From NCBI RefSeq assembly GCF_027497195.1, contig NZ_CP114905.1, positions 7,017,001 through 7,081,000 on the forward strand: DNA of 64,000 nt, given 5' to 3'. This document shows positions 35,389-42,411 of the stretch, piece after piece; position 1 is the first letter of the stretch; each line of letters begins with the position of its first letter. Both the position numbers and the translations under genes were made by a program. This DNA comes from Streptomyces sp. WMMC500 (lineage in GTDB: Bacteria > Actinomycetota > Actinomycetes > Streptomycetales > Streptomycetaceae). The notes under the pieces were generated by a model. That model saw nothing but the letters and a program-made list of their open reading frames with translations. It was not told the origin of the DNA and did not search any database.

Positions 35389-36012
35389 TTACGCCGGGGC
35401 GCAGCCCAGGACGTGGGCTTTTACCAGGTCCGCGATCGCCGGGTCGCGGCGGCGGAAGGCCGCCACGATGTCCGCGTGCTCCTCCGCGTACGACTGCTGG
35501 CGCGTGCCCAGCCAGCGGATCGCCAGCGACGTGTAGATCTCGATGCCCAGCGACTCCCACGTGTGCAGCAGCACGCTGTTGCCCGAGGCCCTGACCAGCT
35601 CCCGGTGGAACGCCACCGTGTGCCTGACCTGCGCCCCGCCGTCGCCCTTCGCGTCCGCCTCCCGCAGCGCCGCCACGTGCGGCTCCAGCGCCGAGACGTC
35701 CGCCGCCAGCCGCGGCGCCGCCAGCTCCGCCGCGATCTGCTCGAGGCCGGCCCGTACCGGATAGATCTCCTCCAGGTCCGCCGCTGTCAGGTCGCGGACC
35801 CGTACGCCCTTGTTCGGCGCCGACTCGATCAGCCGCAGGCTCTCCAGCTCGCGCAGCGCCTCGCGCACCGGCGTCTGGCTGACCTCCAGCTCGACCGCGA
35901 TGCGCCGTTCCACGATCCGCTCGCCCGGCTTCCACCGGCCGCTGACGACGCCCTCCACGATGTGCTCGCGGATCTGCTCGCGCAGCGACGGGTGGATGAC
36001 GGAAGGGGGCAT
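35389..36012 (-). CDS. GntR-family (FadR subfamily) transcriptional regulator
   Basis: A repressor-type protein of about 207 residues. The N-terminal winged HTH reads LREQIREHIVEGVVSGRWKPGE then VERRIAVELEVSQTPVREALRELESLRLIE, the standard GntR motif. The C-terminal FCD domain carries the metal/ligand pattern (HTVAFHRELVRASGN, EEHADIVAAF). GAGGAG lies six bases before the ATG at 36012, favouring MPPSVIHP over the longer open frame. Upstream of aceE on the same strand, it is a plausible pyruvate dehydrogenase regulator sensing an organic acid. That role is inferred. Confidence 0.9.
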   Translation of the reverse strand: MPPSVIHPSLREQIREHIVEGVVSGRWKPGERIVERRIAVELEVSQTPVREALRELESLRLIESAPNKGVRVRDLTAADLEEIYPVRAGLEQIAAELAAPRLAADVSALEPHVAALREADAKGDGGAQVRHTVAFHRELVRASGNSVLLHTWESLGIEIYTSLAIRWLGTRQQSYAEEHADIVAAFRRRDPAIADLVKAHVLGCAPA

Positions 36013-36135
36013 CGGCATCTCCTCGGGATCGCTCACGCGGACGCGCGGGGGTGCAGACGAGAATACGGCGCCCCCGCCCGGACCGTATCCGGACGGGGAC
36101 GCCGCGGGGTGTACGTCGGGCGGGGCGCCGCCCGC

Positions 36136-37533
36136 TCAGTCGAAGGGATCGCCGTTGTACTGCGGCTTGCGCAGCCGGTCCGGGGTGAGGGGGCTCATGT
36201 CCGTCACGTCGCGCGGCGAGAGCTGGAAGCCCTGCCAGTGCACCGGCATCGGCGTCTGGTCCTCGTCGCGGGCGATGTGGTGGAAGCCCACGTTCACCCA
36301 GACGATCGGGTGCTTGAGCTGCTCGCCGTTGTTGGCGGCCACGATGTCCTTCGCGCAGTTCTGGTCGAACTCACGGTTGTGGTTCGGGAACTTCTCGCAC
36401 TTCTTGTACTGCGTGAACCACACGTCCTTGCTCGTGAACTTGCGCCCCGTGTAGCGCGCGCTGTTGCTGTGCACCAGCTCCCAGGAGCGCGTGTGCCCGT
36501 CGCCGTTCTTCCCCGCCGTGCCGCTCACGCGCCACCAGCGGTGCTGGTCGGAGTTGCCCGCGGTCTCCTTGGTGACGTTCTTGCGGGTCGTCTCCTGCGC
36601 CGGGTAGCCCCCGGAGCCGGTGCCGGAGCGCTTCGTGTCGTACTGCTGGATCTTGGCCGGGCGGGAGCTGTCCGTCTGGAAGTCCAGCCGCCAGAAGACG
36701 TTGTGCTGGTGGCTGGTCGCGCGGTCGCGCGACTCCTTGCCGATCGGCCAGCCCTGCTTGTCGGAGGCGTCGAAGTCACCGGGGGAGAGGTTGCCGGTGG
36801 CGCCCTCCTTGGCGGTGATGGTGCCGTCGTCGGAGAAGTTCCACTGGGTGATGTAGTAGTAGTAACCCGCCGAGTGGATCGTGTAGACGACGAGGTCGTC
36901 GCCCTGCGCGCTGTCGTTGCGGCCGTTCTCCTCGCCGACGTCCATGCTGTTGCCGAAGTGCGCGAAGCCGCGCGGCTGCTGGGTGACGCAGACCGCGTCG
37001 TACGTCTCGCGGCCGACCTTGACCGGGCGGCGGGTGCCGCCGGGGCAGTCCTTCTCCTTCAGCGACACGGGTGCGGAGCCGAGGGCGATCTCGGTGACGT
37101 CGTAGTACTCGATGTCGCCGTCGTCGTAGGGCACGTGTATCTGGCCGAGGCGGGCGCTGTTGAGCACCGGGACGGCGTTGTTCGCGCCCTTCGGCTTGTA
37201 CGAGATGTCTTCCAGGACCAGGCCCGCGTAGTCGTTGTTGCGGTAGCACATCTGCCACTCGGTGCCGTTGGGCAGCTTGTGCGTGATCCGGTACTCCTCG
37301 CTGCAGTCCGGCGCCGCCGCCTGCGGCGCGTGCGGCGTCGCGGCGCCGGCGGAGGGCAGCGCCGCCGGGGCGGCGGCCGGGAGCAGCAGGACGAGGGCGG
37401 CGACGGCGCCCCCGCGCCAGGTCGCGGGGCGGCGCCAGAAGGCGCCTGCCCGCCGGCCGTCGGCGGGCGCCTCCGGGCCGGCGTGCGAGCCGGCCTCCGG
37501 CGCGTCCGGCCCGTGGGTCGTGGCGTTACGCAT
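36136..37533 (-). CDS. Secreted copper amine oxidase-like catalytic-domain protein
   Basis: A 465-residue exported protein, signal peptide near residues 40-65. The rest matches the C-terminal catalytic domain of copper amine oxidases: VPYDDGDIEYYDVTEIALG (Asp145 at the catalytic-base position), WNFSDDGTITAKEGATG, the Cu ligand pair HQH at 275-277, and NVGFHHIARDED with His419 as third ligand. The tyrosine that would become TPQ aligns with Tyr225, but the consensus N-Y-[DE]-Y is replaced by four tyrosines (224-227). It lacks the N2/N3 domains, which appear to be encoded by the overlapping upstream gene. Activity is therefore uncertain. Confidence 0.75.
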   Translation of the reverse strand: MRNATTHGPDAPEAGSHAGPEAPADGRRAGAFWRRPATWRGGAVAALVLLLPAAAPAALPSAGAATPHAPQAAAPDCSEEYRITHKLPNGTEWQMCYRNNDYAGLVLEDISYKPKGANNAVPVLNSARLGQIHVPYDDGDIEYYDVTEIALGSAPVSLKEKDCPGGTRRPVKVGRETYDAVCVTQQPRGFAHFGNSMDVGEENGRNDSAQGDDLVVYTIHSAGYYYYITQWNFSDDGTITAKEGATGNLSPGDFDASDKQGWPIGKESRDRATSHQHNVFWRLDFQTDSSRPAKIQQYDTKRSGTGSGGYPAQETTRKNVTKETAGNSDQHRWWRVSGTAGKNGDGHTRSWELVHSNSARYTGRKFTSKDVWFTQYKKCEKFPNHNREFDQNCAKDIVAANNGEQLKHPIVWVNVGFHHIARDEDQTPMPVHWQGFQLSPRDVTDMSPLTPDRLRKPQYNGDPFD

Positions 37534-38332
37534 GGTGCACCTTCCGCTCGCTCAGGTCGATGACGAAGTCGCGGGTGTCGATCCACGGGCCGTCCTTGAC
37601 CCGGGTGAAGAGCCGCACGCAGCGGTGCTCCCCGCACTGCTCCAGGCCGCCGGAGTCGCCCGGCCGTGCCGTGTACGTCATCCCCTGGACCTGCAACTGC
37701 CGCGCGCCGGTGAGCTCTTCGCCGGTCGCCGCCTCGTAGTCCTGCCGCAGGCCGGCCCCGACGGGGCTGTCCACCAGCAGGTCGGCGGCGGCCTCCGCCT
37801 CCGGCGCGGCCGGCGGGGGCTGGGCGCCGGTGGACTCGACGGTGTCCACGACCTCGTCGCTGGTGAGGTTGACGCTCTTCTGGACGAGCGTGTCCCGCGC
37901 GTAGTCGTAGAAGTACACCTCGGCGATCCGGTCGTCGCCCCGGCTCACCGACGTGTCGGCGAGGTCGGTGTTGACGAGCTGCGGCACACCCTCGCGGCCC
38001 CGGACGCCCTCGCTCTCCGTACGCAGCGCCCGGTCCCCCGCGAGCGCCAGCTCCTCCGCGCGCCGCTCCTCGTCCGGCGTCAGCGGGTCGCTGCCCGAGC
38101 CGGTCTTCCCTTCCGGCAGCGGCGCGGTGCCCGGCCCCCCGGTGCCCGGTGTCCCCAGCGCGCCCGGCGCCGGCGAGGACGCGGACGTCCCCGGGTCCCC
38201 CTCCTGTCGGTCGTCGCCGGACGCGCCGAGCGGCACGGCCACGACGACGGCGGCCGCGGTGCCCGCGACGGCCGTCAACGCCCCCCACACGATGCGCTGT
38301 CGCATGCGGCGGCCTCCCCCCGATGTGCTCAT
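37526..38332 (-). CDS. Exported protein resembling amine oxidase N-terminal domains
   Basis: A 268-residue protein with an N-terminal hydrophobic segment (residues 12-34) acting as signal or anchor, then a Gly/Pro/Ser-rich stretch. The body contains AEVYFYDYARDTLVQKSVNLTSDEVVDTVESTGAQPPPA and TYTARP...CGEHRC...DFVIDLSERKV, which resemble the N2/N3 accessory domains that precede the catalytic domain in full-length copper amine oxidases. GAAGGGA precedes the ATG. The last eight bases overlap the start of the catalytic-domain gene, so both are made together. A split enzyme is the simplest reading; the domain match is by eye. Confidence 0.65.
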   Translation of the reverse strand: MSTSGGGRRMRQRIVWGALTAVAGTAAAVVVAVPLGASGDDRQEGDPGTSASSPAPGALGTPGTGGPGTAPLPEGKTGSGSDPLTPDEERRAEELALAGDRALRTESEGVRGREGVPQLVNTDLADTSVSRGDDRIAEVYFYDYARDTLVQKSVNLTSDEVVDTVESTGAQPPPAAPEAEAAADLLVDSPVGAGLRQDYEAATGEELTGARQLQVQGMTYTARPGDSGGLEQCGEHRCVRLFTRVKDGPWIDTRDFVIDLSERKVHHA

Positions 38333-38502: not shown

Positions 38503-41500
38503 ATGGGGCGGCGGGAGAAGCCCGTGGATCCGTCCGCGGGCCCGGTCCAGCGCTTCGCGTACGAGCTGCGCAAGCTGCGGGCCGAAGCAGGAGGACCGAC
38601 CTACCGGCAGCTCGCCGCGCGCGGGCCGTACTCGGTGACGGCGCTGTCGCAGGCCGCCGCCGGCGACCGGCTGCCGTCGCTGCCGGTGGCGCTGGCGTAC
38701 GCGGAGGGCTGCGGCGGCGATCCGGGCGAGTGGGAGTGGCGCTGGCGGCAGGCGGCGGCGGAGGAGGCGGAAGAGCCGCTGCAGCAGAGCGACGCGGCGC
38801 CGCCGTACCGCGGTCTCGCGCGCTTCGAACCGGGCGACCGCGACCGGTTCTTCGGCCGCGACCGGCTCACGGCGGACCTCGTGGAGCTGGTGAGCGCGCG
38901 CCGCTTCGCGGCCGTCTTCGGCCCGTCGGGCAGCGGGAAGTCGTCGCTGCTGCGCGCGGGGCTCGTACCGGCGCTGCAGGCGGGGGGCGTGCGGGGTGCG
39001 GCGGGGGAGGGGGACGGACGGGACCCCGGGGAGCCGGCAGCGGAGGCCGGCGAACGGGGAGCGGATGTCGGCGAACGGGGAGCGGACGCCGGCGGGCCGG
39101 GAGCGGATCCGGGGGAGCCGAGTGCGGAGCCGGTCTGCCCGCCGCCCGCCGCGCTGCGCATCCTCACGCCCGGCGAGCACCCCCTGCGCACGCACGCCGA
39201 CGTGCTCGACGCGGCCTCCGCCGAGGGCGACACGTACCTCCTCGTCGACCAGTTCGAGGAGGTCTTCACCCTCTGCCAGGACCCCGAGGAGCGCGCCGCC
39301 TTCGTCGACCGCCTCGTCGCCGCCCGCGACCCCGCGCGCCGCCTGCGGGTGGTCATCGCCGTCCGCGCCGACTTCTACGGCCGCTGCGCCGAACACCGCG
39401 CGCTGACCGAGGCGCTGCGCGACGCCCAGTTGCTCGTCGGCCCCATGTCGCCGGCGGAGCTGCGCGAGGCGGTGGTCAAGCCCGCGGCGGCGGAGGGCCT
39501 GATCGTGGAGCGGGCGCTGACGGCGCGCATCCTCAAGGACGTCGACGGCGAGCCGGGCGCGCTGCCGCTGATGTCGCACGTCCTGCTGGAGACCTGGCAC
39601 CGGCGGCGGGGCCGCGCGCTGACGGAGGAGGCGTACGAGGCGGCGGGAGGCGTCCGCGGCGCGATCGCCGGCACGGCGGAGCGGGTCTACGGCGAACTGA
39701 CGCCGGACCGGCAACAGGCCGCCCGCCGCGCACTGCTCCGCCTGGTCTCGCCGGGCGAGGGCTCCCAGGACACCCGCCGTCCGGCACCGCGGGCGGAGCT
39801 GGCGGAGATCACATCGGGGAGGCCGGCCGCAGATGGCGCGGGCGCGGGGAATCCCTCCCACAACCCGCCCTCCGGCTCCGCCGACGTCGGGCACGTGCTC
39901 GAACGGCTCGTCGAGGCCCGGCTGCTGACCCTCGACGACGACGTCGTCGACCTCGCCCACGAGGCCCTCCTCACCGCCTGGCCGCGGCTGCACGGCTGGA
40001 TCGAGGAGGACCGCGAGCGCATGCGCGCGCTGCGGCGGCTCACCGAGGCCGCGCACGGCTGGGAGGAGCTGGACCGCGATCCCGGGGCCCTCTACCGGGG
40101 GAGCCGGCTCGCCCAGGCCGAGGAGTTGTTCGCCGGCAGGCCGCAGGAGCTGACCGGCCGCGAGGCCGCGTTCCTCGCCGCCAGCACCGCCGCCCGCGGC
40201 CGGGAGCGGCGGCGCTTTCGCGGGCTGCTCACCACGCTCGTGGCCCTGCTCGTGCTCGCCCTGGTCGCCGGTTCCTTCGCCTGGCAGCAGGACCGCGCCG
40301 CCGACGCCGAGCACCGCCGCGCCGAGGCCCGCCGCGTCGCGGCCGTCGCCGGAAGCCTGCGGTTCACCGATCCCGTACGGGCCATGCAGCTCAGCGTCGC
40401 CGCCTGGCGGCTCGCCGACACCCCGGAGACCCGCGGCGCCCTGCTCGGCGCGCTGCACCAGCGCGAGTCCGACTCGTTCGCCCTCCCGCAGTCCGGCGAG
40501 CCCCGCGCGCAGCGCTTCCTCGACGCCGACGGCCGCACGGTCACCAGCGTCGGCAGGGACCGCGTCGAGCGCTGGGACGTCGCCACCCACCGCCGGCTCG
40601 ACTCCGGTCCCGGCCTCGGCCACCCGGCCGACGAGTCCGACTTCCAGCTCTCCCCCGACGGCCGCACCCTCGCGGTCGCGCAGGGGGACGGCGGCGTGCG
40701 GCTGCGCCCGGGCGGCGGTGACATACCGGGCACCACCGGCTGGTTCGGCCCCAGCGGCCGGACGTACCTGTCGCACACCTGGTCCTTCGACGGCGAGCGG
40801 ACGCACCTCGCGCTCTACGACGTACGCACCCGCGAGAAGCTCTTCTCCTACGAGACGGGCACCGGGGACACCGGCTGGTTCAGCAGCGTCAGCCCCGACG
40901 ACCGCCTCGTCGTCGTGTGCCCGTCCAGCGGCCCGCCCGAGGTGTGGCGCACGGGCGAGCGGCAGCGCATGCTGCGCGCGTACCCCGAGGCCCGCGACGC
41001 CTGCGGCGGCGACACGACGGCGCTGGAGTTCACGCCCGACAGCCGCGGGATCGTCGTCATGAACGACTCCGGCTTCCGCGTGCTGGACGTGGCGACCGGC
41101 CGGAAGCGGCTGGAGGTGGAGCGCGAGGGGCTGTCGGAGATCCAGTTCAGCCGCGACGGCTCGCTGGTCGCCGCCGTGGGCCCGGACGAGCTGATCGTCT
41201 GGCGCACGGCCGACGTCTCGGCGCCGGTGCTGCGCCACCCGCTGGTCAGCGAGTACGCCACGGAGCTGCGCGTGACGCCGGGCAACGGGGAGCTGCGGTA
41301 CCTCAGCGGGCTGTCCGGGCACGTCGTCCGCACCGTGCGGCTGGACGGCATCGCCGGCCCCGGCTGGCACGAGCGGCGGCTGGAGGGCGCGGTGTTCAGC
41401 CCGGACGGCGGCAAGCTGGTCACCGCCCGCCGCTCGGGGGCGCGCGGCGTGTTCGAGGTGCGCGACATGCGCGGCGGCCGGACGCCGCAGGCGCCGCCGC

Positions 41501-42411
41501 CGCTGCCGTGCCGGGTGCCGCGGGGGCTGGATCCCGTCGCCGACTTCTGCATTCCGCTGATGGCGTTCAGCCCCGACGGCCGGCGGCTGGCGTACGCGCT
41601 GCCGAGCGTCATGGGCGACGAGCCGGAGCGCGTGCGGGTGTGGGACACCCGGACCGGGCGGATGGTGCGGACCATGGACGTCACCCCGGACCCGTCGCGG
41701 GTCAACCCGCTGAACAGCCTCGCCTTCGGGGCGGGCGGCAAGCTGATCCTCTCGCGCATACCCGACCGGGAGTCCCTGGAGGTGTGGGACGTCGCGCGCG
41801 GCGAGCGCGTGCGCCGGCTGCGCGACACCGGCGGCGACCCGCTGGCCCTGCACCCCGCCGGCAGGCTGCTGGCCACCGGCGACGACCAGCTCGTCGCGCT
41901 GCGCGGCGGCCGGGTCACGCCGCGCCCGCTGGCGCAGGACGGCGTGCGCTCCGTGGAGTTCAGCCCGGACGGCCGCTTCCTCGCCGCGGGCGACGACTCC
42001 GGCCGGGTCACGCTGTGGGACGGCGAGGGCCGGCGCCGCCTCGGGGTCCTGCCCGGTACGTACCGGGGGATGCAGACGGGCGCCGCGGAACCGGCGACGG
42101 CGCTGGCGTTCTCGCCGGACGGCCGCACGCTGGCGGTCGCGGGGCACTCGGGGACGCTGCGGCTGTGGGACACCGCGTCGAACCAGTCGCTGGGCGGCAG
42201 TCTGCCCACGGCCGGCGACGAACTGCTGGCGGTGTCCTTCAGCCCCGACGGCAGCGAGGTCTACGCGGTCGGCCGGCACACCTCGCCACGCGCGTACCCG
42301 GCGGATCCGGAGCGGGCGCGGCAGGCGGTGTGCGCCCGCGCGGGCGGGGGTCTGTCGCGCGCGGACTGGGAGGCGTACCTGCCGGGAACGGCGTACCGGG
42401 ACACCTGCTGA
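38503..42411 (+). CDS. HTH / STAND-type NTPase / WD40 repeat protein
   Basis: A 1302-residue multidomain protein. Residues about 10-70 form an XRE-like helix-turn-helix (FAYELRKLRAEAGGPTYRQLA, VTALSQAAAGDRLPSLPVALAYAEGCGG). The NTPase domain has Walker A GPSGSGKSS at 140-148 and Walker B YLLVDQFEEVF, as in nSTAND1 proteins, with a low-complexity insert of seven-residue repeats between. A transmembrane helix lies near 573-592. The remainder is a WD40/YVTN-like propeller with repeated FSPDGRxLA motifs. Such proteins are signal-integrating scaffolds in actinomycetes; ligand and target are unknown. Divergent from the amine oxidase-like pair. Confidence 0.9.
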   Translation: MGRREKPVDPSAGPVQRFAYELRKLRAEAGGPTYRQLAARGPYSVTALSQAAAGDRLPSLPVALAYAEGCGGDPGEWEWRWRQAAAEEAEEPLQQSDAAPPYRGLARFEPGDRDRFFGRDRLTADLVELVSARRFAAVFGPSGSGKSSLLRAGLVPALQAGGVRGAAGEGDGRDPGEPAAEAGERGADVGERGADAGGPGADPGEPSAEPVCPPPAALRILTPGEHPLRTHADVLDAASAEGDTYLLVDQFEEVFTLCQDPEERAAFVDRLVAARDPARRLRVVIAVRADFYGRCAEHRALTEALRDAQLLVGPMSPAELREAVVKPAAAEGLIVERALTARILKDVDGEPGALPLMSHVLLETWHRRRGRALTEEAYEAAGGVRGAIAGTAERVYGELTPDRQQAARRALLRLVSPGEGSQDTRRPAPRAELAEITSGRPAADGAGAGNPSHNPPSGSADVGHVLERLVEARLLTLDDDVVDLAHEALLTAWPRLHGWIEEDRERMRALRRLTEAAHGWEELDRDPGALYRGSRLAQAEELFAGRPQELTGREAAFLAASTAARGRERRRFRGLLTTLVALLVLALVAGSFAWQQDRAADAEHRRAEARRVAAVAGSLRFTDPVRAMQLSVAAWRLADTPETRGALLGALHQRESDSFALPQSGEPRAQRFLDADGRTVTSVGRDRVERWDVATHRRLDSGPGLGHPADESDFQLSPDGRTLAVAQGDGGVRLRPGGGDIPGTTGWFGPSGRTYLSHTWSFDGERTHLALYDVRTREKLFSYETGTGDTGWFSSVSPDDRLVVVCPSSGPPEVWRTGERQRMLRAYPEARDACGGDTTALEFTPDSRGIVVMNDSGFRVLDVATGRKRLEVEREGLSEIQFSRDGSLVAAVGPDELIVWRTADVSAPVLRHPLVSEYATELRVTPGNGELRYLSGLSGHVVRTVRLDGIAGPGWHERRLEGAVFSPDGGKLVTARRSGARGVFEVRDMRGGRTPQAPPPLPCRVPRGLDPVADFCIPLMAFSPDGRRLAYALPSVMGDEPERVRVWDTRTGRMVRTMDVTPDPSRVNPLNSLAFGAGGKLILSRIPDRESLEVWDVARGERVRRLRDTGGDPLALHPAGRLLATGDDQLVALRGGRVTPRPLAQDGVRSVEFSPDGRFLAAGDDSGRVTLWDGEGRRRLGVLPGTYRGMQTGAAEPATALAFSPDGRTLAVAGHSGTLRLWDTASNQSLGGSLPTAGDELLAVSFSPDGSEVYAVGRHTSPRAYPADPERARQAVCARAGGGLSRADWEAYLPGTAYRDTC
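39043..39105 (+). repeat. Three 21-bp tandem repeats in the NTPase gene
   Basis: Imperfect copies of GAGGCCGGCGAACGGGGAGC+G encode seven-residue units (EAGERGA, DVGERGA, DAGGPGA) in the linker between Walker A and Walker B. Confidence 0.9.

Follow-up and report, generated by a model that had tools for sequence, protein, structure and literature searches.

Streptomyces sp. WMMC500 carries two overlapping genes that together resemble a copper amine oxidase cut in two, with four consecutive tyrosines at the place where such enzymes form their topaquinone (TPQ) cofactor. The question raised by this locus is whether it could encode a working quinoenzyme, and whether it is one odd protein or part of a branch of the family. 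The pair lies in a 64,000-nucleotide stretch of contig NZ_CP114905.1, which is called here the window; all coordinates refer to it.

The gene pair

Both genes are on the minus strand, the N2-N3-subunit gene (37526..38332, 268 aa, assigned from the ORF, an AF2 model, PDB fold matches and a family profile) being upstream of the catalytic-subunit gene (36136..37533, 465 aa, assigned from the ORF and a PF01179 match). According to the ORF list the two reading frames overlap by 8 bases (37526..37533, minus strand), at the stop of the first gene and the start of the second. A profile search of the genome, a single 8.61-Mb contig, found this PF01179 match only, and the nearest named record found is a Streptomyces aculeolatus protein, 92% identical. 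Comparison of the window with two close relatives gave dN/dS values of 0.28-0.38 in the catalytic gene and of 0.29-0.44 in its N partner, indicating that both are under constraint. A GntR/FCD regulator gene (35389-36036, minus strand) is found just downstream of the pair and may or may not control it, and a gene encoding an nSTAND1 NTPase with WD40 repeats (38503-42411, plus strand) is divergent from the pair.

Predicted folds of the two proteins

In the Pfam search the 465-aa protein matched PF01179 over residues 81-448 with 117.8 bits (curated cut-off 27), and amine oxidases of E. coli and Arthrobacter are the solved relatives closest in sequence (best E 5.5e-15); identity to AGAO (Arthrobacter globiformis phenylethylamine oxidase) is 22-25%. 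PF01186 (lysyl oxidase) was absent from its Pfam matches up to E 1. Both proteins were modelled as single chains and their signal peptides were judged by eye. The model of the catalytic protein has the copper amine oxidase catalytic fold at about residues 76-454, and about 66 low-confidence residues at the N-terminus, including a hydrophobic stretch. A fold of another kind had been named beforehand as grounds for abandoning the initial annotation; going by the prediction, the protein almost certainly has the fold expected.

The family search suggested at the outset was thus positive for Cu_amine_oxid and negative for the accessory domains, since the 268-aa protein had no N2/N3 Pfam match up to E 1, no Pfam or NCBIfam match above cut-off, and nothing better than E 0.34 among PDB sequences. 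Its likeness to N2-N3 domains is weak in sequence and lies in the predicted fold. After a hydrophobic N-terminus and an Ala/Gly/Pro-rich linker (about residues 40-74), residues 75-268 form two alpha/beta (cystatin-like) domains in the AF2 model, and the PDB structures that head the list of matches to this model are copper amine oxidases, over their N2-N3 region. In addition, a profile built from 64 of 116 N-family proteins plus the window protein matched 13 of 36 one-gene-type loci at E <= 0.01, in every case in the N-terminal part. Because the N model stops at residue 189 on AGAO numbering and the catalytic model begins at about residue 232, the split point falls in the linker. We can therefore state with high confidence, on the strength of the predicted structures and the profile matches, that the split architecture first proposed is correct, and that N2 and N3 are carried by the product of a separate upstream gene and not on the same chain as the catalytic domain.

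The putative active site

The TPQ consensus of copper amine oxidases is T-x-x-N-Y-[DE], with an Asn described as strictly conserved (PMC3382800). The window protein departs from it twice, with Tyr for Asn and Tyr for Asp/Glu, in the motif Y224-Y225-Y226-Y227 (36853..36864, minus strand, counted from the ORF start at 37533). A profile-profile alignment against 34 one-gene rows (probability 99.9) places Y225 on the TPQ tyrosine and Y224 on the Asn (AGAO N381), so the four tyrosines do occupy the TPQ site, as initially proposed, and are not displaced from it, which would have counted as a refutation. On the same strand and in the same alignment, H275 and H277 of the H275-Q-H277 motif (36703..36711) and H419 (36277..36279) fall on the copper ligands, confirming the three putative ligands named earlier, and Y136 (37126..37128) falls on the equivalent of the conserved AGAO Tyr284, which hydrogen-bonds TPQ. 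The candidate catalytic base, D145 (37099..37101, minus strand), reaches the catalytic Asp only across a 5-residue gap, a deletion before this Asp that AGAO does not have, and its candidacy is upheld by its invariance among the homologs described below. In an alignment without gaps A150 would take this place; this residue was rejected, since its position is not conserved and since the profile alignment, like the fact that D145 never varies, opposes it.

Residues were counted in 227 rows of the catalytic-subunit type, as judged by length and layout, consisting of the window protein and 226 homologs. The first set comprised 121 rows (the window and 120 listed of 515 homologs) and the second comprised 106 new proteins among 120 listed of 419. 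Asn precedes the TPQ tyrosine in none of the 227 listed rows, its place being taken by Trp (209), Tyr (17) or His (1); the first set has W 103, Y 17 and H 1 (row P0065) at position 224, and the second has W in 106 of 106. Position 226 is more varied (E 92, H 21, Y 3, Q 2, V 2 and D 1 in the first 121 listed rows; E 103, Q 2 and V 1 in the 106 further proteins), and 31 of the 227 listed rows, among them the window with its Tyr, have His, Tyr, Gln or Val where Asp/Glu would be expected. The commonest motif among the listed rows is W-Y-E-Y, and YYYY is found in three of the first 121 (the window, P0001 and P0004). By contrast with this variability, Y225, Y227, D145, Y136, H275 and H277 are each present in 227 of 227 listed rows and H419 in 226, the remaining row having a gap. 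The same residues were invariant in 14 chosen sequences from several families (identity to the first 39-48%), where position 224 is W in 12 and Y in 2. The site was therefore rightly called abnormal as far as the missing Asn is concerned, but it is not the peculiarity of one protein: the whole sampled branch lacks the Asn, and YYYY is a local variant.

Distribution and pairing of the two genes

Among 199 Streptomyces genomes, 94 contained PF01179 matches, 117 in total. Strong matches (23, at 467.8-540.4 bits) represent the one-gene type, and those below 200 bits were taken as the split type (94 matches in 86 genomes, including a few fragments). The N gene is directly upstream on the same strand of 89 of these 94 (84 genomes), when fewer than 900 bases were allowed between match ends; the other five are two fragments (G102 and G001), a match at a contig start (G149), one with no neighbour (G104) and one next to a run of N (G179). 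The N profile itself gave 99 matches in Streptomyces, ten of them unpaired and mostly partial. In a 246-genome sample of the class, split-type matches (E <= 1e-30) occurred in 25 genomes, 14 of them outside Streptomyces, and the N gene was upstream in 13 of these 14 loci. At the exception (L079), where no N gene was found beside it, the split-type catalytic protein has a lipobox-like signal (ITAC, judged by eye). Pairing was thus checked beside 108 catalytic genes (94 plus 14), a set other than the 226 aligned homologs, and the pair is kept in six families. A 296-genome sample of the phylum gave, outside Streptomyces, only matches of at most 80 bits and no full-length split-type match. Some Streptomyces (L046, L047, L048, L049 and L050) have a second, diverged split pair with W-Y-D-Y and its own N gene.

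In public records 'copper amine oxidase' and 'primary-amine oxidase' are the usual names of the catalytic proteins; the partner appears as 'hypothetical protein' or as 'Tat pathway signal sequence domain protein'. No description of the two-gene branch turned up in searches of open-access papers.

Comparison with one-gene enzymes

The one-gene sample consisted of 36 loci, 24 obtained with the split-type profile across the phylum and 12 of the 23 strong Streptomyces matches. With the motif read at the aligned position and not by motif search, N-Y-[DE]-Y was present in 35 of 35 one-gene-type ORFs with a catalytic match, corresponding to 34 distinct genes as two ORFs are the same gene; locus L030 was too short to score. 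In a tree of 59 rows, which is unrooted and flagged for long branches meeting, the one-gene and split sequences are on opposite sides of one branch with support of 100/100. Neither a fused gene with W-Y nor a split gene with N-Y was seen among 120 listed of 419 proteins, and in all 50 of the 106 further proteins that exceed 500 aa (50/50) the catalytic domain lies close to the N-terminus and is followed by the additional residues. Locus L032, where N2-N3 and catalytic parts are in two overlapping frames, was considered as a split N-Y-E-Y pair and rejected: its N2-to-VPY distance is about 171 residues, against 170 in the one-gene locus L031, and we read it as a one-gene N-Y-E-Y enzyme with a frame break.

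Among known enzymes, AGAO, a PF01179 protein, is encoded by one gene and has N-Y-[DE]-Y, whereas the window has two genes and Y-Y-Y-Y; E. coli TynA (ECAO) has the same fold as the window pair in the structure comparison but carries N-Y-D-Y. TynA is extracytoplasmic and has, on its single chain, an additional N-terminal domain.

The pair has to be kept apart from a second family of copper amine oxidases in Streptomyces. HyaS (SCO7657) is described as a copper-binding, probably Tat-exported amine oxidase (PMC10771440) whose gene sits in a two-gene operon, SCO7657-7658 (PMC4021200), and PMC10771440, PMC6767563 and PMC4021200 suggested it as a characterised member of the split pair; those of PMC6414726, PMC2000904, PMC4391728, PMC7356834 and PMC5643529 contain nothing against it. 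Of 382 Streptomyces genomes, two have the published HyaS sigma-E promoter exactly and two more have it with 2 mismatches, and neither split-pair model matches these four regions. In the one of the four regions that was tested, the protein behind the promoter is a lysyl oxidase (PF01186, 51.2 bits), and HyaS, whose identity here rests on the promoter, was therefore rejected as a member. The loci L088 and L089 represent this HyaS locus, by promoter, with its PF01186 protein.

Gene context and location

Beside the non-Streptomyces split pairs, tblastn located a DUF305 (CopM-type) gene downstream on the same strand in 7 of 14 loci (L073, L075, L076, L078, L093, L095 and L097) and a signal peptidase I (Peptidase_S26) gene in 6 of 14 (L075, L076, L077, L078, L095 and L097); Pfam confirmed DUF305 in two loci and S26 in two, and the sequence of L094 ends too soon to score. 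CopM, from Synechocystis, is a copper-binding DUF305 protein that the cell exports (PMC4335983), and it is possible that the DUF305 gene beside the split pair encodes a dedicated copper carrier for cofactor formation. The DUF305 and S26 gene groups were absent from all 13 Streptomyces loci compared, and the two DUF305 genes of the window's genome are both away from the pair. Eight Streptomyces loci had general synteny only, with a HEPN/DUF5919 gene downstream and nothing functional-looking.

An LxxTG-type motif and tail are found at the C-terminus of 30 of the 50 proteins longer than 500 aa, and also in L062 and L075, while other long catalytic proteins carry Ig-like repeats (PF16640). Given these tails and repeats, the split-type protein is very probably surface-located or secreted.

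A two-chain quinoenzyme and its alternatives

We propose that the pair probably encodes a single extracytoplasmic copper amine oxidase in the form of two polypeptides, belonging to an actinobacterial branch in which an aromatic residue has replaced the Asn. The first chain would supply the N2 and N3 domains and the second the catalytic domain; both would leave the cytoplasm by way of hydrophobic segments at their N-termini and come together outside the membrane, and we regard it as likely that the two proteins do assemble. Copper would be held by the three histidines, and copper and O2 would turn Y225 into topaquinone, whose formation on the catalytic protein is likely judging from the residues kept. 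With Y136 and D145 in their usual roles, the predicted enzyme would probably oxidise a primary amine to the aldehyde with release of H2O2 and ammonia. That the catalytic Asp, the Tyr bonding TPQ, the TPQ Tyr itself and the copper ligands do not vary argues for an active quinoenzyme.

What speaks against this reading is that the Asn, credited with keeping the quinone productive (PMC9491219), is costly to lose in known enzymes. In the AGAO N381A mutant (PDB 7wir, 7wis) TPQ formation proceeds at 1/180 of the rate, kcat is 1/160 and the ring is partly flipped (PMC9491219), and in the Hansenula enzyme N404A forms only 5-10% TPQ and biogenesis in E406Q is an order of magnitude slower (PMC3382800). 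The acidic residue after Y225 is, moreover, also lost in the 31 rows mentioned above, those of the window's group included. Slow or poor TPQ formation by Asn mutants and the missing acidic residue would both suit a copper-tyrosine protein without quinone, in which the aromatic blocks the ring motions and Y225 stays Tyr, serving copper binding or a Cu-tyrosyl radical; such a protein is nevertheless unlikely, because the catalytic Asp and the TPQ-bonding Tyr, which serve quinone positioning and amine turnover, are retained in every listed row. A copper-binding non-oxidase had been one of three options offered initially, together with a different cofactor and a new subfamily, and the conservation of the TPQ Tyr, the Asp, the TPQ-bonding Tyr and the three His over deep divergence (with one gap) makes it less likely than was then noted and leaves the new subfamily as the best of the three. 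The N381A mutant lacks the Asn as the split branch does, but it is a laboratory mutant with Ala, whereas the branch has a bulky aromatic; since it still forms TPQ, the Asn is not absolutely needed. As its loss is costly in AGAO and Hansenula, something else must hold the ring, and the aromatic is the obvious candidate: the Tyr found here, or the Trp of most relatives, would pack on the quinone ring and replace the carboxamide that limits ring flipping, a stacking that we infer from its position only.

The same aromatic could instead be part of a different tyrosine-derived cofactor, being itself oxidised or cross-linked to Y225, in agreement with the presence of Trp or Tyr before Y225 in 226 of 227 listed rows. 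Known LTQ uses Lys and Tyr-Cys cofactors use Cys, neither of which is next to Y225 within the motif, one row has His instead (P0065), and we know of no precedent, making this highly improbable. It is also quite unlikely that the N2-N3 protein stays apart from the catalytic protein, for example as a chaperone or wall anchor, with adjacency reflecting co-expression. Its own long flexible linker and the few catalytic genes with no N gene found beside them (five of 94, and L079) would fit such a role, but four of those six are fragments or lie at a contig end or a run of N, six families retain the pair, and in solved one-gene enzymes the catalytic domain follows N2-N3. Returning to the two-chain oxidase, it is conceivable, though doubtful, that secreted two-subunit quinoenzymes form a separate actinobacterial class, having an aromatic-clamped TPQ with altered redox and substrate behaviour, or an undescribed modified cofactor.

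The two-gene form, with an aromatic replacing a supposedly fixed Asn, appears to occur in Streptomyces and many related bacteria. A large natural branch that has dispensed with this Asn and kept the rest of the active site offers a ready test of the purpose of the Asn, as well as of TPQ formation and turnover beside a bulky aromatic, and the two-chain form lets the N2-N3 domains be made separately and their role probed.
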